A stretch of 48,401 bases of DNA from the NCBI GenBank assembly GCA_024641505.1, contig JAHECY010000222.1:1-48401 (forward strand). The letters run 5' to 3'. Shown piece by piece: positions 11,196 to 47,900 of the stretch; positions within the stretch are counted from its first letter, which is position 1; each line of letters begins with the position of its first letter. The stretch is from Gammaproteobacteria bacterium. Lineage in GTDB: Bacteria; Pseudomonadota; Gammaproteobacteria; SG8-11. The position numbers were made by a program, and so were the translations under genes. Under the pieces are notes generated by a model. That model did no database searches. It was not told where the DNA came from and was given only the letters and a program-made list of their open reading frames with translations.

Positions 11196-11198
11196 CAT

Positions 11199-12428: not shown

Positions 12429-13387
12429 GAGTATTAGTAACAGGGGGTTCCGGATTTGTTGGAACACATTTGATAGCAAAACTAATAGAGCGCAATTGGA
12501 ACATACGGTTAGCGGTACGGGTTGACGATGCAAACTTTCGGATCAAAGGTGAGTGTTGCGACTACATAGTCGTTGGAGACATAAATTCAGATACCCAGTG
12601 GGAAGCTAGTTTGCGAGATGTCGATGTTGTCGTCTATTTGGCAGGCTACGCACATATTTCAAATGACGAATTCTCAAAAATACGACAACGATGCATTGAT
12701 GTAAATACCACCGGGCCTGTTAACTTGGCACGTTCAGCTGCTAAAACAGGCGTAAAGCACTTTATTTACCTAAGCAGTATAGGAGTGGTTTGCCAATATT
12801 CCGAGTTTACCATAAACGAAAATACGCCCTGCAACCCTCATAATGTGTATGCTGAGAGCAAATGGCTGGCAGAGAACGAATTGAAGGGAATTGCTACAAC
12901 TTCTTCAATGGGTGTAACAATATTACGGCCACCATTAGTGTACGGTCCGGGCAATCCTGGGAACTTCAGGAGGCTGATTGATGTGGTATCCAAAGGTTAT
13001 CCACTGCCATTAGGTTCAATTACAAATCGCAGAAGCTTTCTCTATGTAAAAAATCTGGTCGACGTCATTTTAAAATGCATTGAAGCACCCGCAGATGATA
13101 GTGTCGTGTATCATGTCAGCGATGACCAATCCGTATCGACACCAGAACTCATTACCATATTGGCCCAAACAATGGGTAAGAAAGCCAAGCTATATAACGT
13201 ACCGGTTTCTATTCTCTCGGGAATTGCTTCAGTAACGCGACACAAAGATGATTTAATTCGTTTAAAACAATCATTAGAGCTGGATAATACGAAATTTAAA
13301 GAAAATATTGACTGGACACCGCCATATACTTTGCAGGAAGGAATAAAAGAAACGATAAACTGGTATTTAGTTCAGCATGGAAAATAA
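12425..13387 (+). CDS. WbpV-like NAD-dependent epimerase/dehydratase (UDP-HexNAc 4-reductase type)
   Basis: A 320-residue extended SDR. VTGGSGFVG gives the cofactor loop G7xxG10xxG13. YLSSIGVV supplies the serine and YAESKWLAE the Y142xxxK146 pair, so the active site is complete. LRPPLVYGPGNPGNF and RRSFLYVKNLVD are substrate-domain motifs. It resembles WbpV/WreQ-type enzymes that reduce the 4-keto group of the WbpM product to give UDP-QuiNAc or UDP-FucNAc. That is consistent with the WbpM-like gene 370 bases downstream and the WbpL-like initiator upstream. A 4-epimerase function is the main alternative. It is the last gene of the AT-rich block. Confidence 0.83.
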   Translation: MRVLVTGGSGFVGTHLIAKLIERNWNIRLAVRVDDANFRIKGECCDYIVVGDINSDTQWEASLRDVDVVVYLAGYAHISNDEFSKIRQRCIDVNTTGPVNLARSAAKTGVKHFIYLSSIGVVCQYSEFTINENTPCNPHNVYAESKWLAENELKGIATTSSMGVTILRPPLVYGPGNPGNFRRLIDVVSKGYPLPLGSITNRRSFLYVKNLVDVILKCIEAPADDSVVYHVSDDQSVSTPELITILAQTMGKKAKLYNVPVSILSGIASVTRHKDDLIRLKQSLELDNTKFKENIDWTPPYTLQEGIKETINWYLVQHGK

Positions 13388-13757
13388 TGTTTACTGTGAT
13401 CTTCTATTTTCCGCGAAATACTCCTTGAAGAATAAGTCGAAGGTAAAACTACCAATGCTATGTACACGACAACGACTCTTCATCAGAATTGCATAAATAT
13501 TGCCAGCAATTCCGCTGATCATACCGATACAACCTCATAAAACCATATTAAAAAAGCGTAATAATCTCGGCATATTACCTAATCTATGGGTCTTATCGGA
13601 CCTCACCAATCGTTCTAAACATATATCCAATTAATGCCTTAAATTACAATATTTCCTTTGCCCTATTTTAATTCACCAAAATTAGTGTTTGTGATTTTTC
13701 GAATGTAACGTAAAATCTAATGCAAATTTTTATATAAGCGGAACACTTCCCCCATTA
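13388..13757. other. AT-rich intergenic region at the edge of the polysaccharide block
   Basis: 370 bases without a credible coding sequence, markedly AT-rich, with stops in all frames. It marks the transition from the AT-rich glycosyltransferase block to the higher-GC wbpM-galU-cysM segment. The right end holds a plausible promoter (separate entry). I see no insertion sequence ends or direct repeats flanking it. Confidence 0.6.
13689..13716 (+). promoter_or_regulatory. Putative sigma-70 promoter of the wbpM-like gene
   Basis: TTGTGA (13689-13694), 16 bases, TAAAAT (13711-13716), ending 41 bases before the ATG of the dehydratase gene. The match to consensus is moderate. Its position after a 370-base gap makes an independent promoter for wbpM and vanZ reasonable. 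Confidence 0.4.
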
Positions 13758-15644: not shown

Positions 15645-16039
15645 CATTGTTGCTCACGACTGTGTTGAAGCATCGTAATCTCTGGCTGACCCTGGGTTGG
15701 CTGCAAGTGGCTACTATTGTGTATCTGTCCCTGACCCCGCACCCGCCTTCCGGGCCGGACATCCCCGATTTTGATAAGATCGCCCATTCAATATCTTATG
15801 CCACCATGATGTATTGGTTCTGCCAACTTTATATGCCGACGAAAACACGCATCGTTATTGGCATGGGTTTCATCGCCATGGGAGTCGGCATTGAATTTAT
15901 CCAAGGCTGGTCAGGGTTTCGCATGTTTGAGTACTGGGACATGGCGGCGAATTCCCTGGGAGTGGTCATTGGGGCTGGGTTGGCAGTGGCAATACGAGTA
16001 AATTTGTTGGTTTTTCTGGAAGCGCGATTTCGACGTTAA
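15641..16039 (+). CDS. VanZ-like membrane protein
   Basis: A small 132-residue protein with four predicted helices. The segment STIVYLSLTPHPP-like near residues 23-35 (here TIVYLSLTPHPPSG), the DKIAHSISYATMMYW stretch and GVGIEFIQGWSGFRMFEYWDMAANSLG are the conserved VanZ-domain elements (the HxxxY, E-x-x-Q and D-x-x-A-N-x-x-G positions). The GTG start overlaps the wbpM stop (GTGA), giving tight coupling. VanZ-like proteins are commonly attached to polysaccharide clusters, but their biochemical function is not established outside teicoplanin resistance. A role in envelope glycan export or protection is only inferred from context. Confidence 0.8.
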   Translation: MTLLLTTVLKHRNLWLTLGWLQVATIVYLSLTPHPPSGPDIPDFDKIAHSISYATMMYWFCQLYMPTKTRIVIGMGFIAMGVGIEFIQGWSGFRMFEYWDMAANSLGVVIGAGLAVAIRVNLLVFLEARFRR

Positions 16040-16179
16040 CGGATTAAAGGAATGGAAATATGTTAAGTGCTTTGATAGGATGGACCTCCAGCGAATCCCA
16101 TTTCACAAGTTTCCGAGGCGACCTATAAAACCTCACCCAATGTTCTTACCATAATTAAAAAGTGCATTAATCAAAGACT

Positions 16180-17067
16180 ATGGATCGAGTCATCAAAAAA
16201 GCAGTTTTTCCCGTTGCGGGTCTGGGCACCCGTTTTTTACCCGCCACCAAATCCAATCCTAAAGAAATGCTACCGGTGGTGGACAAACCTCTGATCCAGT
16301 ATGCCGCGGAAGAGGCGGTGGAAGCGGGGATCAAAGAACTGATTTTTGTTACCGGTCGTACCAAGCGCGCCATCCCCGACCACTTCGACAAGGCCTATGA
16401 GCTGGAAGCGGAGTTGGAAGCCAAGGGCAAGACCAAACTTCTGGAGCTGGTACGCAATGTCATCCCCGATGATGTTGTGTGTATCTATATCCGCCAGGCG
16501 GAAGCCCTGGGTTTGGGACACGCGGTACTGTGCGCCAAGCCGGTGGTGGGCAATGAACCCTTTGCCATCATTCTGGCGGACGATTTGATCGATGGCCAGC
16601 CCAAGAATTGCCTGGCGCAAATGATGGATGTATTCCGCAAGCACGGCAGCAGTGTGCTGGGGGTGGAACGGGTGCCGGAAGAGCACACCAATCAGTACGG
16701 CATCGTCGCCACCCAGCCCATCGAAGGTCGCATCAGTGCGGTGAAGCAGATCGTGGAAAAACCAAAACCCGCTGAAGCGCCTTCAAACCTGGGAGTGGTG
16801 GGACGCTATATTCTGACGCCGCGCATTTTCCCGTTGCTGGAAACCATTGGTCGTGGTGCCGGTGGGGAAATTCAGCTTACCGACGCCATTGCCAAGTTGC
16901 TGGATGAGCAACAAGTACTGGCGTATGAATTCCAGGGGAAACGCTACGACTGCGGCAGTAAACTGGGCTATTTGCAGGCCACGGTGGAATATGCCCTGAA
17001 ACACCCGGATCTGGCCGAGGATTTTCGGCATTACCTGCAGTCTTATTGCCTCCCCGAGATCGGCTGA
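16180..17067 (+). CDS. galU: UTP-glucose-1-phosphate uridylyltransferase
   Basis: A 295-residue cytoplasmic nucleotidyltransferase that makes UDP-glucose from UTP and glucose-1-phosphate, the precursor for surface polysaccharides. [20 protein letters not shown] is the nucleotide-binding signature with the catalytic arginine and lysine, [11 protein letters not shown] follows, then LADDLID (metal-binding aspartate), VEKPKP and [10 protein letters not shown]. The length agrees with bacterial GalU. ATG 16180 precedes the conserved core by about ten residues. The 140-base gap upstream has no strong promoter that I can point to. A perfect 11-bp hairpin lies just after the stop. Confidence 0.96.
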
Positions 17068-30608: not shown

Positions 30609-32009
30609 ATGGATCAATCACTCATTTTTGATTTCGAATTGATAAAAAAATACGACAAGTCCGGTCCCCGCTATACCTCGTATCCCACCGCCGTACAGTT
30701 TCATGAGGGATTTGCCGAACCGGAGTACCGTCGCTGGGCAGTCTGGACCAATGAGCAAAGTCAAGCCGCGACGTCGCCTACACCTTTGTCCCTGTATTTT
30801 CATATCCCCTTTTGCGATACCGTGTGCTTCTATTGCGGCTGCAACAAGGTGGCGACCAAAGATCGTACCAAAGCCATGCCCTATTTGCGGCGCGTCTTCA
30901 AAGAGATTGCCATGCAAGCGGCCTTGTTCGACAATGACAGGCCGGTGGACCAATTGCATTGGGGTGGCGGCACGCCCACATTCATCAGCCGCGAAGAAAT
31001 GCGTGAACTCATGGCGGTTACGCGCCGTCATTTCAAGTTACATGACGACGACAGTGGCGAATATTCCATTGAAATCGATCCTCGGGAAGCGGATACCGGC
31101 ACTATTACGTTATTGCGCGAACTGGGTTTTAATCGCATCAGCATGGGCGTACAGGATTTTGACCCAGCGGTGCAAACAGCGGTAAATCGAATCCAATCTA
31201 AAGCCGAGACCTTGCGCGTATTGCAGGAGGCGCGTGAACAGGGTTTCAAATCCATTAGCCTGGATCTTATTTACGGCTTGCCATTTCAATCAGCGACCAG
31301 TTTCAATCGCACACTGGACACAGTAATCGAGTTCGACCCGGACCGGTTGTCGGTTTTTAATTATGCGCACTTGCCGGAGATGTTTAAACCGCAACGACGC
31401 ATCAATGAAGCAGAGCTGCCTTCCGCCAGCCAAAAGCTCGACATTCTGAGCCAGACCGCGGAGCGCCTGGCACAAGCCGGTTATGTCTACATCGGCATGG
31501 ATCACTTCGCCAAACCCGATGATGAAATGGCCGTGGCCCAGCGCAATGGCACCCTGTACCGCAACTTCCAGGGCTATTCCACCCACGCGGATTGCGACCT
31601 GATAGCCATGGGGATCACCTCGATCAGCAAGGTAGGGCACAGTTATGCGCAAAACGTTAAAACTCTGGACGAGTATTACTCATTGCTGGATGCCGATAAA
31701 TTGCCCGTCTATCGGGGCGTGGAACTCGACCAGGATGATCTGTTGCGTCGCGCCATTATCATGGAGGTGATGTGTCATTTCATGCTGGATTTTTCCCAGA
31801 TCGAAAAGCGCTACAATTTGCTGTTCGCCGACTATTTTTCCCAGGAGATCGGTGAGTTGCGACACATGCAGAAGGATGGTTTGCTGACCCTTAGCGAGAC
31901 TCGCCTCGAAGTGTTACCCGTAGGCAGATTGCTGATCCGAAATATCGCCATGGTGTTCGACAAATACCTGCGGCAATCCACCAAGCAACGGTTCTCGAAA
32001 GTCATCTAA
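30609..32009 (+). CDS. hemN: Oxygen-independent coproporphyrinogen III oxidase
   Basis: A 466-residue radical SAM enzyme that decarboxylates coproporphyrinogen III to protoporphyrinogen IX without oxygen, so heme can be made under anoxia. The [4Fe-4S] motif is in FHIPFCDTVCFYCGCNK with C69, C73 and C76. HWGGGTPTF is the second SAM-binding element. SMGVQDFDPAVQ, GLPFQSATSF and GMDHFAKPDDE complete the HemN pattern. The N-terminal YDKSGPRYTSYPTAVQF is the true HemN 'trip wire' region, absent from HemW, so HemN is firmly indicated. Heme supply is notable here because the MCP downstream carries a heme c motif, but no operon link is seen. Confidence 0.96.
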   Translation: MDQSLIFDFELIKKYDKSGPRYTSYPTAVQFHEGFAEPEYRRWAVWTNEQSQAATSPTPLSLYFHIPFCDTVCFYCGCNKVATKDRTKAMPYLRRVFKEIAMQAALFDNDRPVDQLHWGGGTPTFISREEMRELMAVTRRHFKLHDDDSGEYSIEIDPREADTGTITLLRELGFNRISMGVQDFDPAVQTAVNRIQSKAETLRVLQEAREQGFKSISLDLIYGLPFQSATSFNRTLDTVIEFDPDRLSVFNYAHLPEMFKPQRRINEAELPSASQKLDILSQTAERLAQAGYVYIGMDHFAKPDDEMAVAQRNGTLYRNFQGYSTHADCDLIAMGITSISKVGHSYAQNVKTLDEYYSLLDADKLPVYRGVELDQDDLLRRAIIMEVMCHFMLDFSQIEKRYNLLFADYFSQEIGELRHMQKDGLLTLSETRLEVLPVGRLLIRNIAMVFDKYLRQSTKQRFSKVI

Positions 32010-34981: not shown

Positions 34982-37165
34982 TCATTTGGTTTTCATGGTG
35001 AAAACACCGTCCCAACTGCTGTCGGGTTGATGGTTCTGATAGGTCTGACAACGTTCAATCATAAGGGACTGAATCTTGTCACTGGGTAATTGTTGATAAC
35101 AGCCGATGGCGGCATCCCATTGTCGATGTAAATAGTGATCAAAGCCCTGTTCGGTCACTGACACCACGAGCATGGCACGAGCCAGCTCTTCATCGTCCAC
35201 CAGATCACCGATCAGCAGTGGTGCGTAGATGCGTATAGGATGATGTTTGCCTTTGACTCGCACCAGATCCACGATCCGGCAGGGTATTTCATCGCGGATG
35301 TATTCATAGGTATACTCGGTAAACAGAATGGGGCACCCGTACTGTTTGGTCAAACCCTCCAGGCGCGAAGCCAGGTTCACATTATCGCCGATTACCGTAT
35401 ACTGCAGTTTTTTATCGGACCCGATATTCCCCAACACCACTTCGCCGCTGTTCAAGCCGATACCGATTTCCAACGGTTGGTAGCCCACGGCTTCCAATGT
35501 GGCATTGACTTCGGGCAGTATTGTCATCATGCGAATTGCCGCGTTCACCGCGTCACGGGCATGTGCTTTGGTACGAATCGGTGCCCCCCAAAAGGCCATA
35601 ATGGCATCGCCAATAAACTTATCGACCGTGCCATTGTGCGCATAGATGGCATCCGTCATTTTGGAAAAATAAATATTGAGCATTTCCACGACACGCTCGC
35701 CGCTCATGGTTTCTGATATCGTGGTAAAACTTCGAATATCCGAGAACAATATTGTGAGGTTTTCGCGGGTACCCACTTCCGCCTGCAGAAAATCGCCGTA
35801 TTTGTCCACCACTTCCGCCAATATCACCGGCGACACATATTGGGAAAGCACTTTGCGAACTTTACGTTTGTCCTTGCCTTCGGTGAAGGTCAGGTACATG
35901 TAAGCGCTACTCCAGGCGAGCACGATGCCCAGGGAGGGTGTCACCATTTCCAGCACCAGATTGCTGCCAAACAACCCATAGGCACTCAAATTATAGGTAA
36001 TGAATACCGCCGCCGGAATGATAATGCGCAGACTCAAAGCCGTGGTGAGAATGGTGCTGAAACAGGTGATTAGTACAAATAAAACACTAAACAAGTAGGT
36101 GGCGCCGGAGCCGATTTCCTGCAGAAAATCACCGTCGATGAGATTGCCGGCGGCCGAGGCGTGAATAAATACGCCAGCCGCGGACGGTGACATTGGGGTC
36201 GCTTTCAAATCGTAGATGGCCGCGGCATTGGCACCAATGTAGATAATCTTATTTTCCAGATCACGGAATAACTCCATTACACTTTCCGCATCACCCGCAT
36301 CGAAACGTCGTTTCGCGGACATTAGCCAACTGTAGGAGTAGGTGTTGAACTTTCCGTAGGGATTAACCAGATAGGTGCCTTGCTCCGAAACCGGTACATG
36401 TTTACCACCGACAAGCAATTCCCCGGATTCGAAGTCAATACTGTCAACCCCCTGCGCGCGCAGCGCGCCCGCCAGTGACAGAGCAGGGTAGAAAGCCCCC
36501 TGGAAGCGGTGTACCAGGTGAACCCGACGATAAATACCATCCACATCCGATGCGGCGTAGACAACGCCAATGCCCGGGGATGCTGCGTAAAGTGGTGTGA
36601 TCGGTAACATGATTTTGTCATGTTCATGATGTTTCGGCAGTCCCGACACAGCCGCCGACGTCATTACATTGTGGGCGTCTCGATTCAGGGCAAATCGGTT
36701 GACGAAATCCTCTGGAACCTGAACGCTGTTATCAACATCAGGAAAAACGTCTTTATCAAAATGCACCGCATGAAAAACAAAATCCGTGGCACTCGTTTCA
36801 TCCACCAGGGCTTGATCCTGATCATTCAGCTTGCCATCCCGGTCAGGATACTGCTTCTCGGTGAACAACACATCGAAAAGCAAAGCCTTGGGATTCGCAT
36901 TGGCCAAGAATTGTATTAGATCCGCATGCACCGAGCGCGGCCATGGCCAGCGGCCGGCAATATCATTCATGTATTGCAGGGAAGGTTCATCTATCATCAC
37001 AATCACGATATTGTTCGGCGCAGGCTTCTGCGCATTGAAGCTGCGCATGCGCCAATCCAAGGTGAGCCATTCCAGTCTTTGCAGCGCTCCGGCAAAATGC
37101 AGGGCGCCAGTGGCGGCCACCACCAGAACTGACAGCAACAGACTGACCATCAGGTTTTGTTTCAC
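34982..37165 (-). CDS. CHASE2-domain class III adenylate/guanylate cyclase
   Basis: About 727 residues from a GTG at 37165 preceded by GGAG at six bases; a TTG at 37198 would add eleven. After one N-terminal helix comes a periplasmic CHASE2 sensor (about 30-330): RLEWLTLDWRMRSF, DEPSLQYMNDIAGRWPW, then GAGVFIHASAAGNL. Three helices follow (about 335-420), and then the cyclase domain: LFSDIRSFTTISE (first metal aspartate), VDKFIGDAIMAFWGAPI (second), and VIGDNVNLASRLEGL. The key acidic residues are intact, so it should make cAMP (or cGMP) in the cytoplasm in answer to an unknown periplasmic signal. It is the first gene of the minus-strand operon and lies divergent from the Wsp-like operon. Confidence 0.92.
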   Translation of the reverse strand: MKQNLMVSLLLSVLVVAATGALHFAGALQRLEWLTLDWRMRSFNAQKPAPNNIVIVMIDEPSLQYMNDIAGRWPWPRSVHADLIQFLANANPKALLFDVLFTEKQYPDRDGKLNDQDQALVDETSATDFVFHAVHFDKDVFPDVDNSVQVPEDFVNRFALNRDAHNVMTSAAVSGLPKHHEHDKIMLPITPLYAASPGIGVVYAASDVDGIYRRVHLVHRFQGAFYPALSLAGALRAQGVDSIDFESGELLVGGKHVPVSEQGTYLVNPYGKFNTYSYSWLMSAKRRFDAGDAESVMELFRDLENKIIYIGANAAAIYDLKATPMSPSAAGVFIHASAAGNLIDGDFLQEIGSGATYLFSVLFVLITCFSTILTTALSLRIIIPAAVFITYNLSAYGLFGSNLVLEMVTPSLGIVLAWSSAYMYLTFTEGKDKRKVRKVLSQYVSPVILAEVVDKYGDFLQAEVGTRENLTILFSDIRSFTTISETMSGERVVEMLNIYFSKMTDAIYAHNGTVDKFIGDAIMAFWGAPIRTKAHARDAVNAAIRMMTILPEVNATLEAVGYQPLEIGIGLNSGEVVLGNIGSDKKLQYTVIGDNVNLASRLEGLTKQYGCPILFTEYTYEYIRDEIPCRIVDLVRVKGKHHPIRIYAPLLIGDLVDDEELARAMLVVSVTEQGFDHYLHRQWDAAIGCYQQLPSDKIQSLMIERCQTYQNHQPDSSWDGVFTMKTK

Positions 37166-37546
37166 TGTGGACTCCAAGCGCGAAGTAGATATGTGCAAGA
37201 AATATCGAGTGCGCAGGGAGGAACTTTAAATTACAGTAGACAGCCGCGTCTGGAGATTTGGAAATCGGTAGTTCGCGACAGTCGCGCACGTCCTTAAATT
37301 GTGGCTGGAGAACAGATACACTGGCTGTAAATCGCGCAGGCGGAACGCACACTTATTATTAAAAATAGTCCGCAACTTATTGTTTTATTTAACCATTTAC
37401 ATGTGACGCCGGTGCCGGGTCAAGCTGCGACTGCGGGTCGCCCACACTTATTCTATTATAATCATGCAGTTATACTTGAAATCTTATAATATGGTCTAGA
37501 CCAAACATATTCGTCTGGAAAGGTTTGTTTACGAGGATCGCTATCG
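37166..37546. other. Divergent intergenic region between cyclase and Wsp-like operons
   Basis: 381 bases with no credible gene. The right part is AT-rich and holds a TATAAT (37485-37490) and a perfect 12-bp palindrome (37492-37503), listed separately. Promoters for both operons should lie here. A clear -35 element is not visible. Confidence 0.55.
37485..37503 (+). promoter_or_regulatory. Candidate -10 box with adjacent 12-bp palindrome (operator?)
   Basis: TATAAT at 37485-37490 is followed one base later by TGGTCTAGACCA (37492-37503), a perfect 12-bp palindrome that would straddle the transcription start, 44 bases before the MCP ATG. No good -35 is seen, which suggests activator dependence. 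The site could bind a repressor or activator dimer. Confidence 0.4.
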
Positions 37547-39532
37547 ATGGAGTCTCCACAATCCAGCATGTTTAAATGGACGCTGCGCACCAAGGTCAAC
37601 TTGGTGGTGGGCATTAATCTTCTGCTGGTGCTTCTATTCGTCACCACCTATACCGTGCAACGGGAAACCAACCGTCTGCTGGAGCTGACGGAAACACAGA
37701 CCAAAGACTTGACCACCTTCTACTTCGACAGTCTCAACACCATGATGCTGACCGGCACCATGGACAAACGTAATATTCTCCGTAACAAGACTCTCGCCCG
37801 GCCCGAAGTAATCGAAGCGCGCGTCATTCGGGGCCAGCCTGTCATTCAACAATTCGGTCCGGGGTGGCCGGAAGAAGTCCCCCTTGACGATATGGATTCC
37901 CGAGCGCTTAAAGGCGAAAGCATTTCCCTGATCGAAACCCGGGGCGGCAAGCGGGTGTGGACCGCCATCACCCCTTTCAGGGCAACGGAAGAAACGCGTG
38001 GTGTGAACTGCCTCAATTGCCACAAGGTACCTTCTGGCAGTATCAATGGCGCCATCCGCATCAGCCTGAGTCTCGATAATGTAGACGCGGCCGTAAAAAA
38101 GGAAATGTGGACCACGATTTGGGCGAACTTTGGCATGTTCGCCGTCGGCCTGTTAATTGTTAACTTGTTGCTGCAGTATTGGTTTATCACTCCCTTGACG
38201 GGCTTGCTGGAAGTCATACGCAAACGCGGTGAGGGAGACATTCATATCCGCGCCCACGTCAAGAATCGGGATGAAATCGGAGACCTGGCCGCGGTCTTTA
38301 ATACCATGGCCGACAATGTCAATTTCACCACTGAACGCGAGCACAATGCCAATGAAGAACTTGCCCGCAAGGTACAAATTCTTCTGGATGTCATCAGCAA
38401 GGTAACGGAGGGGCATTACGATGTGCAGGTTGGATTTCACAGCTCCGATGCGATCGGTGAGCTGGCGGAAAATCTGCAGATTATGATTTCCTATATTAAA
38501 AATTCCATCGAGGAAAAAAAGGACGCGATGGAAATGTTACGCAAGAAAGTATCGCGCATTCTGCACGTCGTGGAACAGGCTACCAATGGCGACTTGACCG
38601 GCGAGATCAAGCTGACGGGTTCCGATGCAATTGGTCTACTGGCGGAAGGTGTTCAGGACATGATCACCAGCCTCAACACTTTGGTATCACAGGTGCAAAA
38701 ATCCGGTATTCAAGTGGCATCGTCAGCCACTGAAATCGCAGCTACCGCCAAACAGCAGGAGGCCACTATTTCCGAACAGGCGGCGACCACCAGCGAAATT
38801 GCCGTCACCGCCACGGAAATTTCCGCAACCGCCAAAGAACTGGAAAAAACCATGGATCAGGTGGCAGGCGTCGCTGAATCCACCACGGGTATTGCCGAGG
38901 AGGGCCAGGCAAGTCTCGCCAGAATGCAGACGACCATGAAACAGGTCGTCGACGCCGCCAGTGCCATTGCCAATAAACTTGAAGTTCTCAATGAAAAAGC
39001 CGCTAATATCGGTACTGTCGTCGACACTATCAATCGGGTGGCGGATCAAACGAACTTGTTGTCGCTCAATGCGGCTATCGAAGCCGAAAAAGCCGGTGAA
39101 TATGGCTATGGTTTTTCCGTGGTTGCCAAGGAAATACGTCGACTGGCGGACCAAACGGCAGTGGCGACACTGGACATCGAACAAATAGTCCGTGAAATGC
39201 AGAGCGCAGTATCCGCTGGCGTTATGAGCATGGAGAAATTTTCCGAACAGGTGCGTCATAGCGTGGAGAATGTAAATCAGGCAAGCGGGCAGCTTGGCAA
39301 GATCATCAATGGCGTACAGACCTTGACACCGCGGTTCGAAAGCGTTCACCAGAGCATGCATTTCCAGACCCAAGGCGCCCTGCAAATCAATAATGCGATG
39401 AATTCACTCAATGAATCCGCACACCAAACCGTCGAATCCCTGCAACAGTCCAATGCGGCTATCGACCATCTGAATGACGCAGCGCATAATTTGCAGCATG
39501 CGGTATCCATATTCAAAGTACGCAGGGATTGA
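37547..39532 (+). CDS. WspA-like methyl-accepting protein with a periplasmic heme c motif
   Basis: A 661-residue transducer with an ACGAGGA ribosome site. Helix 1 is about 16-36, the periplasmic sensor about 37-187, and helix 2 about 190-213. The sensor ends with GVNCLNCHK: C155-x-x-C158-H159, a c-type heme attachment site. The region looks like a DUF3365/Tll0287-type heme sensor. A HAMP domain follows (214-267), then two further HAMP-like modules (about 275-330 and 335-390), then a long methylation/signalling coiled coil. The tip (about 498-537), QTNLLSLNAAIEAEKAGEYG and AKEIRRLADQTAVATLDIEQ, matches WspA-class receptors. It heads a six-gene operon; by homology it controls CheA-REC and thus c-di-GMP synthesis. 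Confidence 0.92.
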   Translation: MESPQSSMFKWTLRTKVNLVVGINLLLVLLFVTTYTVQRETNRLLELTETQTKDLTTFYFDSLNTMMLTGTMDKRNILRNKTLARPEVIEARVIRGQPVIQQFGPGWPEEVPLDDMDSRALKGESISLIETRGGKRVWTAITPFRATEETRGVNCLNCHKVPSGSINGAIRISLSLDNVDAAVKKEMWTTIWANFGMFAVGLLIVNLLLQYWFITPLTGLLEVIRKRGEGDIHIRAHVKNRDEIGDLAAVFNTMADNVNFTTEREHNANEELARKVQILLDVISKVTEGHYDVQVGFHSSDAIGELAENLQIMISYIKNSIEEKKDAMEMLRKKVSRILHVVEQATNGDLTGEIKLTGSDAIGLLAEGVQDMITSLNTLVSQVQKSGIQVASSATEIAATAKQQEATISEQAATTSEIAVTATEISATAKELEKTMDQVAGVAESTTGIAEEGQASLARMQTTMKQVVDAASAIANKLEVLNEKAANIGTVVDTINRVADQTNLLSLNAAIEAEKAGEYGYGFSVVAKEIRRLADQTAVATLDIEQIVREMQSAVSAGVMSMEKFSEQVRHSVENVNQASGQLGKIINGVQTLTPRFESVHQSMHFQTQGALQINNAMNSLNESAHQTVESLQQSNAAIDHLNDAAHNLQHAVSIFKVRRD

Positions 39533-39573: not shown

Positions 39574-40875
39574 GTGATGCAGAAAGATGCATGGCAGAAG
39601 ATTCAACAAACGCTGCAAAACGCCATCGGTTTGAATGTCAATGCGGTCGGGAAATCAAATCTCGATCGTGCGGTACATTTTCGCATGAAGCTGCTCAAAT
39701 TGCCCTCGATTGACGCATATGATAAATTTCTGCATACCTCCGCCGCGGAATTGACGGAACTGGTCGAGGAGGTCGTGGTACCGGAAACCTGGTTCTTCCG
39801 CAACCATGAATCATTTAGCGCCCTGTCGAGCATACTGCGCCCGCAATGGTTTGATTTTACCGCCCAGCATCCATTACGCATACTCAGCGTTCCGTGTTCC
39901 ACAGGCGAGGAACCCTACTCAATCGCCATGACACTTCACGATCTAGGGTTGCATCCCAGCGGTTATCATATTGACGCTGTCGATATCAGCGAACGTGCAT
40001 TAGCAAAGGCACGTGAAGGTTGCTATAACAAACACTCCTTTCGTCATAACGAAGGCGGCTTTCGTGAGCGATTTTTTACTGAGAGCGGTGACAACTACCT
40101 TATCAACGCCAAATTACGCCAATCCATAGATTTTCTGCAGGACAATCTGCTGGCGGCTAATTTCGGCTTGTTACGCGGTCATTATCATATTATTTTTTGC
40201 CGAAATCTGCTTATTTACTTCGATCGTGAAACTCAAACCAGGTCAGTGAATAAACTTTGCAACTTATTGCTATCGGATGGCACCCTGTTTCTCGGACATG
40301 CTGAAACCGGCGATTATGTTGGTACCACGCTGAAACGCCTGAAATATGCGCGGGCATTCGCTTATCAACCACGTACCGCCACGCAACCCGCACGGCAGCC
40401 TGCCACCCCAGCGGAAGCTGGCGTTATAAACAAGATGCCACCTTTGCCAATGCCAGCTGATCTTCAGCCAGCGTCGGTGATACCGCCAAATGATTCTGCA
40501 CCATCAATAACGCCGACCCCAGTTGCGGATCTACACATACCTGAGCAGGATTCGCCCGAACTTTCCCAAATCGCCCAGTGCGCTAACGAGGGCAATCTTA
40601 TCCAGGCGGAATTCATGTGCAATGATTACCTGTATCAACATGATACTCATGCACAGGCGTATTATCTGCTGGCTTTGATCTATCAAGCACAGGGGCGTCT
40701 TGAACTGGTCGAGGGTCTATATAGAAAAACGGTTTACCTTGATCCGGATCACTATGAAGCCCTGATTCATCTGGCGGAACACGCGGAGCGTCACAATGAC
40801 AAACATGTGGCCTCACAGTTGCGGGCGCGCTCCAGCCGGGTGCTGGCACGCCGCCGCAAGCAACGTCAAGGATAG
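39574..40875 (+). CDS. CheR-type chemoreceptor methyltransferase with TPR (WspC-like)
   Basis: A 433-residue protein. The CheR all-alpha N-terminal domain is followed by the SAM-binding domain: VPETWFFRNHESF, SVPCSTGEEPYSIAM (from V106), DAVDISERALAKAREGCY and IIFCRNLLIYFDRETQ. A proline-rich linker (about 265-320) leads to a C-terminal TPR region (about 342-425: ALIYQAQGRLELVEGLYRK, YLDPDHYEALIHLAEHA). CheR plus C-terminal TPRs is the WspC layout. It should methylate glutamates of the MCP coiled coil and counter the CheB-type esterase. It is followed by the CheW-type gene after 3 bases. No pentapeptide is seen at the MCP C-terminus, which is usual for WspA. Confidence 0.93.
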   Translation: MMQKDAWQKIQQTLQNAIGLNVNAVGKSNLDRAVHFRMKLLKLPSIDAYDKFLHTSAAELTELVEEVVVPETWFFRNHESFSALSSILRPQWFDFTAQHPLRILSVPCSTGEEPYSIAMTLHDLGLHPSGYHIDAVDISERALAKAREGCYNKHSFRHNEGGFRERFFTESGDNYLINAKLRQSIDFLQDNLLAANFGLLRGHYHIIFCRNLLIYFDRETQTRSVNKLCNLLLSDGTLFLGHAETGDYVGTTLKRLKYARAFAYQPRTATQPARQPATPAEAGVINKMPPLPMPADLQPASVIPPNDSAPSITPTPVADLHIPEQDSPELSQIAQCANEGNLIQAEFMCNDYLYQHDTHAQAYYLLALIYQAQGRLELVEGLYRKTVYLDPDHYEALIHLAEHAERHNDKHVASQLRARSSRVLARRRKQRQG

Positions 40876-40878: not shown

Positions 40879-41562
40879 ATGCCGGATCAGAAGATAGTCA
40901 GTTGCTGGAACAGTATCGGTGTGTGGGGACGGGTACAGCCGCGCTGTGCATTATTGAAAGACATCATTCATTGCCGGAATTGTGAAAAATTCGTGGAAGC
41001 GGGCAGGGAGGTACTGAGTAAGCTACCAGCCCACAACCTCCACACCGATTGGACGACACAAATTGCCGAAGCCAAGGAGCGCCGAAACACCGAGCAAAAT
41101 TCGTTGCTAGTGTTCCGCATCGGCGCTTCATGGTTTGGGCTCAGTTGCGCAGTTCTTGACGAAGTCTGCGCACAACGCAGGATTCGCAGCATACCGAATG
41201 TGGATTCGCTCGTAGTCAAAGGACTGGTTAACATTTCCGGCAAGGTACAATTATGTTTTTCTCTCGGCCAATTATTCAAGATCGAAAAGTACACCGGTAC
41301 CCGGGAGCGGCGTAAAAGCCTCTACGACTCACTTATCGTCGCGGTTTGGAATGGCAGGAAATACGTATTTCCGGTCAACGAAATTCTTGGCATCTACAGC
41401 TATGGCAACCATGCGCTTACCCCGCTCGAGTCGCCCAAGGAAAACCCCGAAGCACGGTTTTTTTCCGGAAAACTTTTGATCGACACCTATACCATACATT
41501 TTCTTGACGCGGGCAGCGTATTCAGCGAATTTGACAGGGACATGAGTCACCATGCCGGATAG
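40879..41562 (+). CDS. CheW-type adaptor with N-terminal four-cysteine motif (WspD-like)
   Basis: A 227-residue adaptor. The first 40 residues contain C9-W-N-S-I-G-V, C23 and H31-C32-R-N-C35; the CWN.IG and HCRNC elements are typical of WspD-type CheW proteins, and the four cysteines could bind a metal or Fe-S centre. Residues 74-220 form a CheW domain (LLVFRIGASWFGLSCAVLDEV, IPNVDSLVVKGLVNISGKVQL, and later FLDAGSVF). It should couple the MCP to the CheA-type kinase. The operon has only this one CheW, while classic Wsp operons have two (WspB and WspD). Its end overlaps the kinase start by 11 bases. Confidence 0.9.
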   Translation: MPDQKIVSCWNSIGVWGRVQPRCALLKDIIHCRNCEKFVEAGREVLSKLPAHNLHTDWTTQIAEAKERRNTEQNSLLVFRIGASWFGLSCAVLDEVCAQRRIRSIPNVDSLVVKGLVNISGKVQLCFSLGQLFKIEKYTGTRERRKSLYDSLIVAVWNGRKYVFPVNEILGIYSYGNHALTPLESPKENPEARFFSGKLLIDTYTIHFLDAGSVFSEFDRDMSHHAG

Positions 41563-43831
41563 CCGCCGTTCCACAATAGACGCCACCATGCTGGATCTAT
41601 TCCATGCCGAGCTGGAACAGCAGTCTTCGGCCCTGGTGTCCGGCATGCTGGAGCTGGAACACAGCAGCACTGACGCATCAATTATCAATAACATGATGCG
41701 GGCCGCACATTCATTGAAAGGTGCCGCGCGGTTACTAAAAGTCGAAAGCGTGGAAAAAATCGCACATATCATGGAAGACATATTTATATCCGCCCAAACC
41801 AACAAATTACAACTCTCAGCCGCGCATATCGATGTACTGTTGGCCGCGGTGGACACGATTAAACATATCGGCGCGGGTGGCGCGGATACCTTGCTCAACT
41901 GGCATACCCGACATGAAGAAAGCTATAAATCGGTACTTGGGGATTTGACAGCGATCGGCTCGCATCCCGAGAAATCTCGACGCCACCGGGGAACCACTTC
42001 CGAAAAGAAAAAGTCAACCCTTGCCGCCGGCAATCATGCTGCTGAAGTCGACGGTGTCCCGCAGCCGCCCGTTAACGACAGACCGGATATCGTACGAATT
42101 TCCAATACCAAAATCGAAGCCATGGTAGGAAAATCCAGTGAACTTCTGGTGCAGCATCGATGGCTGAACAGTTTCGTGACGGAAATGATTCAGCTGAAAA
42201 AACGGTTCGGCGAAGTGAATAATCTCATCGAGACATTACGTGAAAATATCGGCGCCGGAGTAACCACTGAGCAGCAAATAGCCGGTGATCTAAAGTCGCT
42301 CAGTAAACGACTGCGTGACAACAATCAGCGTCTCAACCAAAGCATCAGCAGTGTTTACGAATTTTATCACCGCACTGATTCCTTGATCGAAGATATCAAT
42401 CGTGACATTCTCACCACCCGGATGCGGCCTTTCGCCGAACGACTGACGCAGTTTCCGCGCATGGTCAGAGACATCAGTCGTGGCTTGGATAAAACCGTAA
42501 CCTTGAGCATCGACGGCGGCAATACCGAGGTCGACCGCGATGTACTGGACAAGATAGAAGCACCGCTCACGCACCTGGTACGCAACGCCATCGCGCATGG
42601 CGTGGAACAGCCGGAGCAACGAAAGAAACTTGGGAAAAAACCCGATGCGACGATCACCATATCCGCCAGCTATCGCGCGGGCATGCTGCACATCAGTATT
42701 GCGGACGACGGCGCCGGCATCGACCTGCCGGCGATTAAACGTAAGATTCTTGAAAAAAAACTGGTACCGCGGCAAGTCGTAGATAGTTTGACGGACGAAG
42801 AGTTGATGGCATTCATGTTTCTGCCAGAATTTTCCACAAAAGAGCAAGTCACCGAGATTTCCGGTCGAGGCTTCGGTCTCGACGTCGTAAAGGAAACGGT
42901 AACGGCATTGAAGGGTACGGTCCGGGTCGACAGTGTTCCCGGACGCGGTACCTGTTTTGAACTACAGATGCCGGTAACCGTTTCAGTAGTTACCGCGTTA
43001 ATCGTGGAGATCGTCGCTGAACCGTATGCATTTCCCCTGGCACGCGTAGAAAGAGTTATGAAATTGCAGCAAAGTGACATTTTCTACAGTGATGGCAAAC
43101 AATATTTTACGTTTGACGAGACGCGCTTAAATCTTGTCTCCGCCGGGCAACTGCTGGGGTACACCGAATCCAGCAGCCATGCGGACACGTTGTCGGTGGT
43201 GGTCATTAAGGACTATCTCAACCACTATGCTTTAGTTGTTGATAAAGTGATGGGTCAGAAGGAACTGGTGATGCAACCGCTGGACAGCCGGCTTGGCAAA
43301 ATACCCGAGCTTTCCGCCTGCGCGATCCTGGAAAATGGCATACCCGTATTGATTCTTGATGTCGACGATTTAACCCGATCTCTCGATTTCATGATCAAAG
43401 GCGGGAAGGTAAAACACGTACCGCTTGATCTGACACCTGCCACCATCATCAAACGCATACTGGTGGTCGACGATTCCATAACGGTACGGGAGATTGAACG
43501 CAACTTGCTCGAGACTCACGGCTATCATGTCGAAACTGCGGTCGACGGCATTGATGGCTGGAATGCCATTCGCAGCAATGAATATAATTTACTTATAACT
43601 GATATTGATATGCCCCGCATGGATGGCTTCGAATTGGTCAGTCTGATCAAATCTGATAGCAGATTGAAGCGCTTACCCGTTATGATCGTGTCTTATAAGG
43701 ATCGGATCGAAGACCGGCGCAAAGGCCTGAATCTCGGTGCCGATTACTATCTGACAAAAGGCAGCTTTCATGACGAAACCCTCATTGAGGCGGTTAAGGA
43801 TTTGATTGGAGAGAGTGACGCGACACTATGA
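41552..43831 (+). CDS. CheA-type hybrid histidine kinase with receiver (WspE-like)
   Basis: A 759-residue kinase. The HPt domain (about 8-110) has the phosphorylated H53 in MRAAHSLKGAARLL. After a variable linker come the dimerisation region and the HATPase domain (LTHLVRNAIAHGVEQPEQR, the N box; ISIADDGAGIDL; SGRGFGLDVVKETV), a CheW-like domain (about 480-615), and a C-terminal receiver with ILVVDDSITVREIE and D684 in ITDIDMPRMDG. This HPt-kinase-CheW-REC order is that of WspE, with REC at the C-terminus and D684 as the acceptor that serves as a phosphate sink or relay. Kinase and receiver residues are intact. It overlaps both neighbours. Confidence 0.95.
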   Translation: MPDSRRSTIDATMLDLFHAELEQQSSALVSGMLELEHSSTDASIINNMMRAAHSLKGAARLLKVESVEKIAHIMEDIFISAQTNKLQLSAAHIDVLLAAVDTIKHIGAGGADTLLNWHTRHEESYKSVLGDLTAIGSHPEKSRRHRGTTSEKKKSTLAAGNHAAEVDGVPQPPVNDRPDIVRISNTKIEAMVGKSSELLVQHRWLNSFVTEMIQLKKRFGEVNNLIETLRENIGAGVTTEQQIAGDLKSLSKRLRDNNQRLNQSISSVYEFYHRTDSLIEDINRDILTTRMRPFAERLTQFPRMVRDISRGLDKTVTLSIDGGNTEVDRDVLDKIEAPLTHLVRNAIAHGVEQPEQRKKLGKKPDATITISASYRAGMLHISIADDGAGIDLPAIKRKILEKKLVPRQVVDSLTDEELMAFMFLPEFSTKEQVTEISGRGFGLDVVKETVTALKGTVRVDSVPGRGTCFELQMPVTVSVVTALIVEIVAEPYAFPLARVERVMKLQQSDIFYSDGKQYFTFDETRLNLVSAGQLLGYTESSSHADTLSVVVIKDYLNHYALVVDKVMGQKELVMQPLDSRLGKIPELSACAILENGIPVLILDVDDLTRSLDFMIKGGKVKHVPLDLTPATIIKRILVVDDSITVREIERNLLETHGYHVETAVDGIDGWNAIRSNEYNLLITDIDMPRMDGFELVSLIKSDSRLKRLPVMIVSYKDRIEDRRKGLNLGADYYLTKGSFHDETLIEAVKDLIGESDATL

Positions 43832-44859
43832 AAATCGGTATCGTCAATGACCTTCCCTTGGTACTTGAAGCCTTGCGGCAGACCATAACCCGCAACAACG
43901 ATCATCAGGTCCTGTGGGTGGCCCGGGACGGGGCTCAAGCGGTACGTATGTGCCGTGATCAAACGCCTGATTTGATCCTCATGGATTTACTGATGCCGGT
44001 CATGGACGGTGTCCAGGCTACACGGGAAATCATGGCCTACACACCCTGTCCCATATTAGTCGTCACTTCTTCGATTGAGGTCAACGCATCCCTGGTATTT
44101 GAAGCCATGGGGGCGGGCGCCCTGGATGCCATCAACACACCGATGGTCGACGGCCCTTTATTTGGCAACGGGCGCGAAGATCTGCTCCGAAAAATCTCCT
44201 TGATTGGCCATCTCACCCGTAAAACCACATTGGCGACAGGGCCGACAACCATCATTCCCGGCCCCCCCCGGCCGCATGATCAAACCCTGATCGCCGTTGG
44301 TGCATCATCGGGAGGTCCACACGCCTTAGCCGAGATGCTTGGCGGTTTGCCAGGTGATTTTCCCGCACCCTTGGTTATCGTGCAGCATGTGGACCGGAAG
44401 TTCGTGAGCGAACTGGCAAAATGGCTAAGTACCATGACGCCCTTACCCATCAGCCTTGCGCAACACGGCATGCCGCCACGTCCTGGCAATGTCTATATTG
44501 CATGTTCCAATGATCATTTGGCTATGAATGCTAACAACACTTTCACCTATACCAAAGAACCAAGGGATTTGGTATACCGCCCATCCGTCGACGTATTTTT
44601 CAATAGCATTGTCCAGCACTGGCAAGGCCACGCAATAGGCATACTTTTGACCGGCATGGGCAATGATGGTGCGCAGGGCTTACTGCGCATGAAGCAGCAT
44701 GGCTGGTATACCATTACGCAGGACAGGCAATCCAGCGCTGTTTTCGGTATGCCCAAAGCGGCGGCGGAACTCAATGCTGCTTCGGAAATATTGCCGTTGT
44801 CAGTACTGGGACGGCGTTTGACCCAGCTACTACAAAAAAACAGGGTGGCTGTCCGATGA
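43828..44859 (+). CDS. CheB-type methylesterase with receiver (WspF-like)
   Basis: A 343-residue protein. The receiver has D53 in LILMDLLMPVMDG and is followed by a linker and the CheB esterase domain: GASSGGPHALAEM (catalytic serine), VIVQHVDRKF (histidine) and LLTGMGNDGAQGLLRM (aspartate). It removes methyl groups from the MCP and, in Pseudomonas, loss of WspF locks the pathway on and raises c-di-GMP. The linker contains a C8 run (44262-44269), a possible slippage site. Overlaps both neighbouring genes by four bases. Confidence 0.95.
   Translation: MKIGIVNDLPLVLEALRQTITRNNDHQVLWVARDGAQAVRMCRDQTPDLILMDLLMPVMDGVQATREIMAYTPCPILVVTSSIEVNASLVFEAMGAGALDAINTPMVDGPLFGNGREDLLRKISLIGHLTRKTTLATGPTTIIPGPPRPHDQTLIAVGASSGGPHALAEMLGGLPGDFPAPLVIVQHVDRKFVSELAKWLSTMTPLPISLAQHGMPPRPGNVYIACSNDHLAMNANNTFTYTKEPRDLVYRPSVDVFFNSIVQHWQGHAIGILLTGMGNDGAQGLLRMKQHGWYTITQDRQSSAVFGMPKAAAELNAASEILPLSVLGRRLTQLLQKNRVAVR
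44262..44269 (+). repeat. C8 homopolymer in the cheB linker
   Basis: Eight C within GG-C8-GG, coding for the proline-rich linker between receiver and esterase domains. A one-base slip would cut off the esterase domain. Confidence 0.6.
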
Positions 44860-45929
44860 CCCGCGACAAGACCGATCAACATACTGTGATGTCGGATATA
44901 TATGTCGTGTTGCTGGTGGACGATCAACCCATCATAGGGGAAGCCATCCGGCGTATGTTGGTTCATGAATCCGACATCCAGTTTCACTATTGCCAGAGCT
45001 CCGATCAGGCACTAAGCATGGCACAGGATGTCCAGCCCACGGTGATTCTCCAGGATCTTGTGATGCCGAGCATCGACGGTATGACTTTGTTAAGCCACTA
45101 TCGTAATAATCCGCTGATCTGCGATGTCCCGGTTATCGTGTTGTCGACCAAGGATGATCCATCGGACAAAAGCAACGCATTTGCCGCCGGTGCCAGCGAC
45201 TATCTGGTTAAAATTCCAGACCAGATCGAACTCATTGCGCGCATCAAGGCGCATTCCCGCAGCTACCTGAGTCAAAAGCAACGTGACGAACTGCTTGAAG
45301 AACTGAAAATTGTTCATGCTGAACTGGAGCAAAGCCATCGGGAACTGCAAAAACTTTCATGCATGGACGGATTGACCGGCATCGCCAATCGTCGCCATTT
45401 CGATACCTACTTTTCCCAGGAATGGTTGCGCGCCTTGCGTGAAAAGATCCCGACCTCGCTGATTCTTGCGGACATTGATTTCTTCAAGTACTACAATGAC
45501 AACTATGGGCACCAGGCTGGTGATGAATGTCTGCGGATTATCGCTCAGGCACTTGCGGATGTTCTGCAACGTCCCGGGGATCTTGCCGCGCGCTATGGCG
45601 GTGAGGAGTTCGTGGTGATACTGCCTTATACGGATGAAAAAGGCGCTATCAAGATTGCGTCACAATTGCATGACGCGGTAACTAAACTGGCGATCTCGCA
45701 TGAATTTTCCCCGGTATGCGGGTACGTCACCATCAGTCTCGGTATCGCCACCATGAAGCCCGACAATAAATCTTCACCTTCCGATCTTGTGCAAATTGCT
45801 GATGCCGCGCTGTACAAAGCCAAAGAACAGGGACGCGACCGCTTTGTTGCAGCAGACCCCAACATGCGACCGTTACCGCCAAAACCCAAAGCCAAAGCTA
45901 AAACCAAAGCCAGCAATAGAGAAAAATAG
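44856..45929 (+). CDS. Receiver-GGDEF diguanylate cyclase (WspR-like)
   Basis: A 357-residue response regulator. ATG 44856 overlaps the cheB stop; ATG 44889 is an alternative that starts nearer the receiver. The receiver has D67 in VILQDLVMPSIDG. A helical linker (ELEQSHRELQKLS) leads to the GGDEF domain: LTGIANRRHFD, IDFFKYYNDNYGHQAGD, then R239-PG-D242 (inhibitory I-site RxxD) and G248-G-E-E-F. Both the active and the product-inhibition sites are intact, as in WspR. The phosphorylated form would synthesise c-di-GMP and favour biofilm formation. The C-terminus has a low-complexity PKPKAKAKTKA tail. It is the last gene of the operon. Confidence 0.96.
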   Translation: MTRDKTDQHTVMSDIYVVLLVDDQPIIGEAIRRMLVHESDIQFHYCQSSDQALSMAQDVQPTVILQDLVMPSIDGMTLLSHYRNNPLICDVPVIVLSTKDDPSDKSNAFAAGASDYLVKIPDQIELIARIKAHSRSYLSQKQRDELLEELKIVHAELEQSHRELQKLSCMDGLTGIANRRHFDTYFSQEWLRALREKIPTSLILADIDFFKYYNDNYGHQAGDECLRIIAQALADVLQRPGDLAARYGGEEFVVILPYTDEKGAIKIASQLHDAVTKLAISHEFSPVCGYVTISLGIATMKPDNKSSPSDLVQIADAALYKAKEQGRDRFVAADPNMRPLPPKPKAKAKTKASNREK

Positions 45930-46292: not shown

Positions 46293-47900
46293 TTGAGAAC
46301 CACTTCGCGCCTGGCGCCGTACATTTTTCTATCGCTACTTCTAAGCTCTTGTGGCGATGCCATACAAGAAGTCAGTCAAAACCGGGATGTGGATTACAAA
46401 CCCGGTACGACGCCTGATAACATCTCCACTCGGGAAGACACACCTGTCAATTTCCCAAACCCCGTGCTCAACGACGATTCAACTGATACCATGATATTGA
46501 CATTGAAGGATTTCACCATTCCGGAGCATGGCACGCTCACTCGGGAAGGGGACGGATCCTTTACCTATCTCCCCGCAGCCAACTATTTTGGCACGGACAT
46601 TTTTTATTACATTGCCACCGACGGCGTCCATGCCAGTGACCAGACTCTGGTCACCATCGACATCACGCCTGAAAGCGACGCACCGGTCATTACTTCCGAC
46701 CCGGAAACCGCGGCCACCCAGGATCAGGAATACGTCTACCAGATCATCGTTACCGACCCCGATCCTGAAGAACATTTTACCTACTCATTGAATACCGGTG
46801 ATCGCATACCTCAGGGGTTGCAAATCGATGACAATGGCAGAATGAATTGGACTCCCGGTGCCACGGATATCGGCGCCTACCAAATATCGGTAAAGGTGGT
46901 CGACAGCAATCAGTTAGCCGGCATCCAAAACTACACATTAACGGTTTTTGACACCAAAGGCCCGCCGATTGTGGCACGAAACACGACTTTGGATGCCACA
47001 GAAGGGGCGGAAACGCCTGTAACTCGAAGCACATTGGAGTCTGCAGGTATCGACTTGGCATCCGCTAATCACAGTTATCAGCTGCGCAACCCACCCGGAC
47101 ATGGCAGGCTGCTTATTGGCACCGCGGATGGCGATGTGTCAGCCGAAATTGGCAGCACTTTTTCGCAGACGGATATTGATTACAAGGTGGTTCGTTATCA
47201 GAACAATGGAGACAATGCAGAAAGCGACGCCTTCTATATTGATATCATGGACGATAGCAGCGTCGCCATCACAATTCGTGTTTCCATTGTAATCACCCTT
47301 GTGAACGACACACCAATCGTGGTCAATAATGACAAACTTAATGTGTTAGAGGCCGGAGAAGCAATTGTTACCACCGATACCTTGCAAGTTTCAGACGAAG
47401 AAAGTGGGCCATACGAAATCAGGTTGCGCGTAAATTCCTTGCCCGCCCATGGCTTGTTACGGCTAATTAATCCCGATAAGAAACTTATCACCCTAGCGGT
47501 GGGGAACTTGGTTACGCAGGGTGATATCGACAACGGTGATGTGTCCTATAAGCATGATGGCAGCGAGACCACTGACGACAGCTTTCAACTGCAAGCCACA
47601 GACCTACAAGGTGCTTCAACACAGCCATTCGATGCACTGATCTCAATTACACCGGTCAATGATGTTCCAGTGGCCGGTTCCGATAACCTTATCACACCTC
47701 GCAACACGGCAATCACCTATGATGTACTAGCCAATGATAGCGACGCGGAAAATAATCAACTGGCTATAGTCTCACACACCCAGGGTATCAAAGGCATCGT
47801 GACCGTCAATACTGACAATACCATCACTTATACACCAGATAAAACGCCAGTGGTGTGGATAGTTTCACCTACACCGTGGACGACGGGCAGGGTGGAGTGA
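46293..47900 (+). CDS. Lipoprotein with tandem cadherin/Ig-like repeats (5' fragment of a frameshifted gene)
   Basis: A TTG start, eleven bases after an ATAGGAG site, opens a lipoprotein signal ending in LLSSCGD with C20. Residue +2 is glycine, so the outer membrane is likely. The rest, to about residue 515, is a string of beta-sandwich modules of the cadherin/VCBS/Ig type: EDTPVNFPNPVLNDDS, GSFTYLPAANYFGTDIFYYIATDG, then LLVNDTP-like joints (TLVNDTPIVVNND, ITPVNDVPVAGSDN). The last module runs into a different frame: after about 47850 the sense SGVDSFTYTVDDGQGGVSKPG continues in the frame starting at 47858, so the stop at 47898-47900 is not the natural end. Function is probably adhesion or surface binding. 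Confidence 0.75.
   Translation: MRTTSRLAPYIFLSLLLSSCGDAIQEVSQNRDVDYKPGTTPDNISTREDTPVNFPNPVLNDDSTDTMILTLKDFTIPEHGTLTREGDGSFTYLPAANYFGTDIFYYIATDGVHASDQTLVTIDITPESDAPVITSDPETAATQDQEYVYQIIVTDPDPEEHFTYSLNTGDRIPQGLQIDDNGRMNWTPGATDIGAYQISVKVVDSNQLAGIQNYTLTVFDTKGPPIVARNTTLDATEGAETPVTRSTLESAGIDLASANHSYQLRNPPGHGRLLIGTADGDVSAEIGSTFSQTDIDYKVVRYQNNGDNAESDAFYIDIMDDSSVAITIRVSIVITLVNDTPIVVNNDKLNVLEAGEAIVTTDTLQVSDEESGPYEIRLRVNSLPAHGLLRLINPDKKLITLAVGNLVTQGDIDNGDVSYKHDGSETTDDSFQLQATDLQGASTQPFDALISITPVNDVPVAGSDNLITPRNTAITYDVLANDSDAENNQLAIVSHTQGIKGIVTVNTDNTITYTPDKTPVVWIVSPTPWTTGRVE

Follow-up and report, generated by a model that had tools for sequence, protein, structure and literature searches.

The receptor gene at positions 37547–39532 of the window (the whole 48,401-nucleotide stretch that was analysed) appears to head a heme-sensing Wsp-type system for biofilm or surface behaviour, and not to encode a flagellar chemotaxis receptor, a reading to which we give a probability of roughly 0.8. 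It is backed here by the CXXCH motif of the receptor, the invariance of that motif, the predicted fold of the sensor, an aligned methionine, the presence of CcmF in the genome and the composition of the operon.

Receptor and predicted heme attachment site

The codons TGC CTC AAT TGC CAC at 38009–38023 are in frame with the open reading frame 37547–39532 (+) and encode C155-L-N-C158-H159 of a 661-aa protein, which bears out the CLNCH motif that a preliminary description had placed here. The protein is organized as follows:

37547..39532 (+): predicted heme-c WspA-type receptor, 661 aa, consisting of TM1, heme-Cache sensor, TM2, three HAMP stretches and MCP signalling domain (open reading frame; Pfam HAMP 9.5e-21 over three stretches, MCPsignal 2e-33)
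37580..37660 (+): TM1, residues 12–38 (Kyte-Doolittle scan)
37637..38122 (+): periplasmic heme-Cache sensor as modelled, residues 31–192 (AlphaFold2 pLDDT 96.4, pTM 0.89; Foldseek match to GSU0935, 3b42, E 1.2e-5; hhalign match to GSU0582/GSU0935, E 4e-10)
37745..37747 (+): Met67, invariant, predicted sixth (distal) heme ligand (identical in 129/129; aligned with chain position 26 of 3b42)
38009..38023 (+): predicted heme c attachment site CXXCH, C155-L-N-C158-H159 (C, C and H identical in 129/129)
38114..38197 (+): TM2, about residues 190–217 (Kyte-Doolittle scan)
38180..38320 (+): HAMP domain, best stretch, residues 212–258 (Pfam PF00672)
38870..39412 (+): MCP signalling domain, residues 442–622, a candidate for the WspA type (40H class) (Pfam PF00015; 54% identity over residues 335–658 to the Azoarcus receptor that takes the WspA position)

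The hydropathy scan places the motif about 30–35 residues ahead of the second membrane helix, in line with the distance of about 30 residues given earlier, and from the hydrophobic stretches at residues 12–38 and 187/190–217 it follows that the CXXCH most likely faces the periplasm. The periplasmic part itself has no Pfam match at E up to 1. No other CXXCH occurs among the 35 open reading frames of the window that were taken as genes; composition leads one to expect 0.0015 such motifs by chance per 661-aa protein and 0.033 over the 14,214 residues of all 35 frames. Conservation is stronger evidence against a chance occurrence than these odds, and the invariance of C155, C158 and H159 reported below rules chance out. 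In all likelihood the CXXCH truly serves to attach heme in an outward-facing sensor, and a covalent heme on the receptor is predicted from its sequence.

Conservation among relatives

Relatives were gathered by whole-genome searches, a pattern scan of named contigs and fetches of individual regions. A scripted count covered 129 unique full-length domains; nine further matches, excluded as partial, frame-broken, remote or HAMP-only, are outside it. In the alignment to the model, C155, C158, H159 and M67 are identical in all 129 domains and, after dereplication at 80% identity, in 93/93 sequences, a set in which the only other invariant sites are P143 and G168 and the median column stands at 46%.

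One of the two patterns used for the contig scan contained the conserved Met, a potential sampling bias, and the count was therefore repeated without the loci of that scan and complemented by a motif-free profile search. In the reduced subset all four residues are again identical (67/67), at a median pairwise identity of 0.33 and a minimum of 0.16. The motif-free profile (A4; 35 rows) covers the first 108 residues of the domain, ends ahead of the CXXCH and was run over 369 genomes, where it returned 71 rows below E 1e-17, 70 of them with CXXCH. When these strong rows were assigned by hand to loci by place, 40 were already among the known loci, 30 were read again and one corresponded to L166 (G068:C154), the row without the motif. 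At this locus an in-frame deletion has fused the heme domain's N-terminal half with the end of an HD-GYP protein, at the cost of the CXXCH, TM2, the HD motif region and most of the catalytic domain. It is the sole strong relative whose lack of the motif is not explained by a contig end or frame break, and represents either a pseudogene or an assembly error. Twenty of the 26 weaker rows were fetched, and 18 of them carry CXXCH after the aligned Met; the other two (L299, L300) resemble an unrelated GGDEF protein and an ABC ATPase, and among the six further weak rows G025:C45 is L019, which carries CLACH. The alignment of orthologues proposed in the preliminary description as a check on C155, C158 and H159 thus revealed no variation in either the full or the reduced set, and freely varying cysteines, looked for also with the motif-free search, were not found: every intact strong relative has CXXCH.

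Fold and predicted heme ligands

The resemblance to heme sensors that had been noted around the motif is supported by both fold and family profile, which match the crystallised heme-c chemoreceptor sensors GSU0935 and GSU0582; neither the conserved Met67 nor the downstream Wsp-type operon featured in the preliminary description. The AlphaFold2 model of the sensor domain, built on 76 alignment rows, has a Cache fold; in model numbering, the CXXCH occupies positions 125–129 between strands 105–116 and 135–145, with a short helix near 125. Foldseek placed GSU0935 at ranks 1–2, followed by WalK Cache domains, with Tll0287 ninth; the rmsd of the superposition on GSU0935 is large (13.9 Å), presumably owing to the helix-swapped crystal dimer. 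VIA-align ranked WalK first (Z 13.1) and Tll0287 13th (Z 9.3), and GSU0935 was not among the best 50 matches listed. Run against 177,635 PDB sequences, the family profile had its two best matches in 3b47 (GSU0582, 7.5e-6) and 3b42 (GSU0935, 0.014), in both of which M67 falls on a Met, and hhalign paired the window family with GSU0582/GSU0935 at 96.7%.

Position 26 of the 3b42 chain, with which M67 aligns, is Met60 if the CXXCH His at position 110 is His144, and Met60 is named as the distal ligand of GSU0935 in PMC8396549. The alignment of an invariant M67 with this residue leads to the predicted ligand pair His159/Met67, and a c-type heme ligated in this way is the best reading of alignment and model. 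Since Geobacter sensor domains swap N-terminal helices within the dimer, according to PMC3460858 and PMC8396549, Met67 may come from the partner chain.

With GSU0582 and GSU0935 (Geobacter chemoreceptors; PDB 3b47 and 3b42; PF21563) the window receptor shares the TM-sensor-TM-HAMP-MCP layout, the Cache/PAS-like fold, a single CXXCH shortly ahead of the last strand and, by alignment, distal ligation by a Met from the N-terminal helix. In contrast to these proteins, its sensor is longer, only about 20% identical and equipped with a conserved stretch of its own (RVIRG...GPG), and the receptor has no PF21563 match and heads a Wsp-type operon. Proteins of the sCache_heme/Tll0287-like type (PF11845) are, according to PMC12889525, built alike: a short helix between the third and last strand of their Cache fold bears the CXXCH, and they too are fused to HAMP and signalling modules; the terms Wsp, HD-GYP and methionine are absent from the text of that paper. 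Ligation in Tll0287 is by Cys/His, whereas Met/His is predicted for the window receptor. A periplasmic c-type heme on a chemoreceptor is also shared by DcrA of Desulfovibrio vulgaris, as described in PMC8396549.

The window protein matches neither PF11845 nor PF21563 (Mcp40H-20_sensor) at E up to 1, and a PF11845 search of its own genome gave no match in the window. Among 76 relatives, 29 match PF11845 (best 2.1e-4) and 18 match PF21563 (best 8.4e-7) at E up to 1; PF21563 matches GSU0582 at 3.4e-47 and GSU0935 at 3.4e-49. The sensor, homologous to known ones yet matched by neither Pfam model, is therefore regarded as a separate subfamily outside PF11845 and PF21563. Kinship to a Tll0287-like protein of the same genome, assessed by profile comparison, was unconvincing (16%, E 0.0016, only around the CXXCH and with one sequence on that side). 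Two PF11845-type heme-Cache proteins are encoded elsewhere in this genome: one with TM-sensor-HAMP layout that adjoins a serine/threonine kinase-like gene (contig C189, L302:1411-2283), and one that reads like a sensor histidine kinase (contig C111, L303:616-2100, minus strand).

Two signals can be considered for such a heme. In a redox-potential sensor, the reduced, Met-ligated heme would be one receptor state, and the oxidised heme would release Met67 and flip the receptor. This reading, which in our judgement stands an even chance, draws on the invariant Met aligned to Met60 and on the behaviour reported in PMC8396549 for GSU0935/GSU0582, where Met60 is bound in the reduced form, released in the oxidised form and displaced by NO or CO; it leans, however, on a Geobacter mechanism that is itself a model in that source. 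Alternatively, the heme may be a sensor dedicated to nitric oxide, a role proposed for signalling-type sCache_heme proteins, and the Wsp-type output would then be a response of biofilm formation or dispersal to NO. This more tentative proposal is consistent with the slow NO off-rate of a TM-HAMP sCache_heme protein of Pseudomonas azotoformans (PMC12889525) and with the binding of NO by GSU0582/GSU0935 in both redox forms (PMC8396549). However, the P. azotoformans protein belongs to the DUF3365/PF11845 type and is said in PMC12889525 to be without the axial Cys, the invariant Met67 aligns with the redox-switched ligand of GSU0935, and no cytochrome cd1 nitrite reductase, the only NO enzyme searched for, was found in the genome, so that no supply of NO from denitrification is apparent.

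A Wsp-type operon

The other half of our main reading, namely that the putative heme sensor serves a Wsp-type system, comes from the genes following the receptor:

39574..40875 (+): CheR methyltransferase with C-terminal TPR, WspC position (Pfam CheR 4.2e-42, TPR; 37% identical to the CheR of the Azoarcus wsp-order operon)
40879..41562 (+): CheW with Cys-rich N-terminus, WspD position (Pfam CheW 8e-10; 32% identical over 218 aa to the second Azoarcus CheW)
41552..43831 (+): CheA with Hpt (AHSLKG at residue 52), ATPase, CheW and C-terminal REC, WspE position (Pfam; motif; 41% identical to Azoarcus)
43828..44859 (+): CheB methylesterase with REC, WspF position (Pfam; NCBIfam NF009206, 454 bits against a cut-off of 342; 53% identical to Azoarcus)
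44856..45929 (+): REC-GGDEF diguanylate cyclase, WspR-like, GGEEF at 248 and RPGD at 239 (PDB 3bre, E 3.9e-106, residues 4–348)

The best PDB match of the REC-GGDEF protein, 3bre, is a chain that we take to be P. aeruginosa WspR, and the WspR entries 3i5b and 3i5c come next in the list. Wsp (WspABCDEFR), an alternative-function chemosensory class, has the same order of CheR-TPR, CheW, CheA-REC, CheB and REC-GGDEF after the receptor, as well as GGEEF and RxxD in its cyclase. An operon on an Azoarcus plasmid, to whose genes we assigned wsp letters by gene order, runs receptor, CheW, CheR, CheW, CheA-REC, CheB, cyclase. Identities to it are 54% for residues 335–658 of the receptor and then 37, 32, 41, 53 and 48% for CheR, CheW, CheA, CheB and cyclase, with the window CheW pairing with the second of the two Azoarcus CheW proteins. 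The Azoarcus receptor in WspA position contains no CXXCH. The sensor of Pseudomonas WspA is 4HB_MCP_1 (PMC8846402), in place of which the window receptor has its predicted heme-Cache sensor. The window system further differs from Wsp in the three HAMP stretches of its receptor and in lacking wspB, the CheW gene between receptor and CheR: the operon gave no WspB match, and only 41 nt separate the receptor stop from the CheR start. No wspB was seen at L179, L194 and L196 either; a general loss of wspB from heme Wsp systems is nevertheless ruled out, as most heme relatives keep it.

The Cys-rich N-terminus of the CheW at 40879–41562, with its CWN...G...C...HCRNC pattern, is common to the second Azoarcus CheW and could bind metal. 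Divergently upstream of the receptor lies a CHASE2 adenylate/guanylate cyclase gene (34982–37198, minus strand), which is the neighbour in the same-genus genome G001 as well, and a HemN-type radical SAM gene of the heme biosynthesis family is found about 5.5 kb upstream (30609–32009). Several glycosyltransferase and polysaccharide-biosynthesis genes at 545–17067 are a possible target of c-di-GMP control, and directly after the REC-GGDEF gene an adhesin-like protein of cadherin-like and tandem-95 repeats is encoded at 46293–47900.

Putative heme and non-heme receptors of the WspA type

A search for the WspA-type signalling domain (E up to 1e-60) in the 369 genomes of the class sample returned 68 rows from 60 genomes. 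By place, 32 rows in 32 genomes are heme receptors and 36 are not, and the heme kind makes up about half of WspA-type receptors in this sample. Long regions were read for 29 of the 32 heme rows; contig ends truncate two of these 29 (L197, L198). In all 27 uncut loci the operon headed by the heme receptor ends with REC-GGDEF, with CheR present in 25 and CheB in 24. On the named contigs, CheA lies downstream on the same strand for 29/30 long-type receptors having at least 4,500 nt of downstream sequence. The non-heme kind was represented by 20 regions with 23 strong receptors, none of which contains CXXCH; most of the regions reaching far enough have the same operon. A tree of 55 WspA-type signalling domains (29 heme and 26 non-heme, the non-heme set including three plasmid sequences) contains one branch (95/98) that parts heme from non-heme sensors, with 1 change vs 18.6 under shuffled labels; the tree is unrooted and includes several long-branch rows. 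In one genome two heme MCPs stand in tandem (L016/L017, G038:C1:1686337-1688743); the 229-aa frame of the second ends shortly after the CXXCH, MCP sequence resumes 185 nt on, and the gene looks frame-broken.

The genome has flagellin and other MCP genes, and the receptor could conceivably feed an ordinary flagellar chemotaxis pathway, the GGDEF gene being a mere neighbour. This is very unlikely, as the operon has a CheA with its own REC, a CheR-TPR, a CheB and a REC-GGDEF protein matching WspR over its whole length, as no stand-alone CheY occurs among the operon proteins scanned with Pfam, and as REC-GGDEF recurs at the end of the operon in 27/27 uncut relatives. A Wsp-type system under a putative heme sensor is the reading that we retain.

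Other outputs of the sensor

The same sensor occurs on HD-GYP-type proteins (L008 of the own genome; L145, L148, L150, L154, L155), on the GGDEF proteins L143 and L159, on the GGDEF-EAL protein L167 and on shorter MCPs without a Wsp-type operon, among them those of the Stutzerimonas matches. All of these outputs other than the shorter MCPs act on c-di-GMP. The protein from the own genome (contig C136, L008:688-2145, minus strand) is a second one with the heme-Cache sensor, here fused to an HD-GYP-type domain; within one cell, the sensor is thus found both on a pathway that makes c-di-GMP and on an enzyme that likely degrades it.

Heme maturation genes

A search of the same genome for cytochrome c maturation genes, also suggested in the preliminary description, detected CcmF_C (E 6.6e-132). 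In the class sample of 369 genomes, 55 were counted by hand as domain-bearing (domain row below 1e-18). CcmF_C is present in 49 of these, and full-length ResB, which is part of a different heme maturation system, in four of the other six. The remaining two, G037 (86% complete) and G085, have neither a CcmF_C nor a full ResB match; both match PF01578, a family found in 342/369 genomes and dropped as a maturation marker for being too common. Control genomes for ResB were hand-picked from those poor in PF01578, which does not make a fair control, and no statistic was drawn from them. The frequency of CcmF_C is higher in domain-bearing than in other genomes (49/55 vs 231/314, Fisher p 0.016), but with 280/369 genomes carrying it overall, its co-occurrence with the heme domain is consistent, weak evidence. 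That the CXXCH is a zinc or disulfide site or a relic is extremely improbable, even with the heme being read from sequence and two domain-bearing genomes lacking a confirmed maturation gene, given a His as invariant as both Cys and accompanied by an invariant Met, a fold and profile that match solved heme-c sensors, and ResB in place of CcmF_C in 4/6 genomes.

Proposed mechanism

For the heme-sensing Wsp-type system we infer heme attachment and ligation, a redox or NO signal, the sign of the response and phosphotransfer to the GGDEF protein, in a mechanism that would run as follows. One covalent c-type heme would be held in the periplasmic Cache domain by C155 and C158; H159 would be its proximal ligand, and the distal one would be M67, contributed by the N-terminal helices. 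Oxidation of the heme, or replacement of Met67 by NO or CO, would alter the packing of the N-terminal helices and of TM1/TM2, and the signal would reach the CheA-REC kinase by way of HAMP and the MCP hairpin. Phosphorylation of the REC-GGDEF protein by this kinase would then change c-di-GMP, and CheR and CheB would adapt the receptor.

Implications

The Wsp system is known chiefly from surface sensing. Both Wsp and chemoreceptors with heme-c Cache sensors have been described before, each separately; no heme-bearing Wsp receptor was found in the literature searched, a search that mostly left subscription journals outside, and the available part of PMC5513912, which treats wsp clusters in Zetaproteobacteria, mentions CXXCH for cytochromes only. 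It is likely that a distinct Wsp lineage exists in Gammaproteobacteria and some related groups, in which a Met/His heme-c Cache domain replaces the usual WspA sensor, and this would place Wsp under the control of periplasmic redox state or NO. Heme-c Cache sensors would thereby extend to a subfamily whose window member is missed by Pfam and which is tied to c-di-GMP outputs, namely Wsp operons, HD-GYP, GGDEF and GGDEF-EAL. Many WspA-type receptors would have a chemically defined cofactor, and could be tested by setting the heme potential or NO and reading c-di-GMP. The bacterium studied here probably adjusts its life on surfaces or in biofilms to redox state or nitric oxide.
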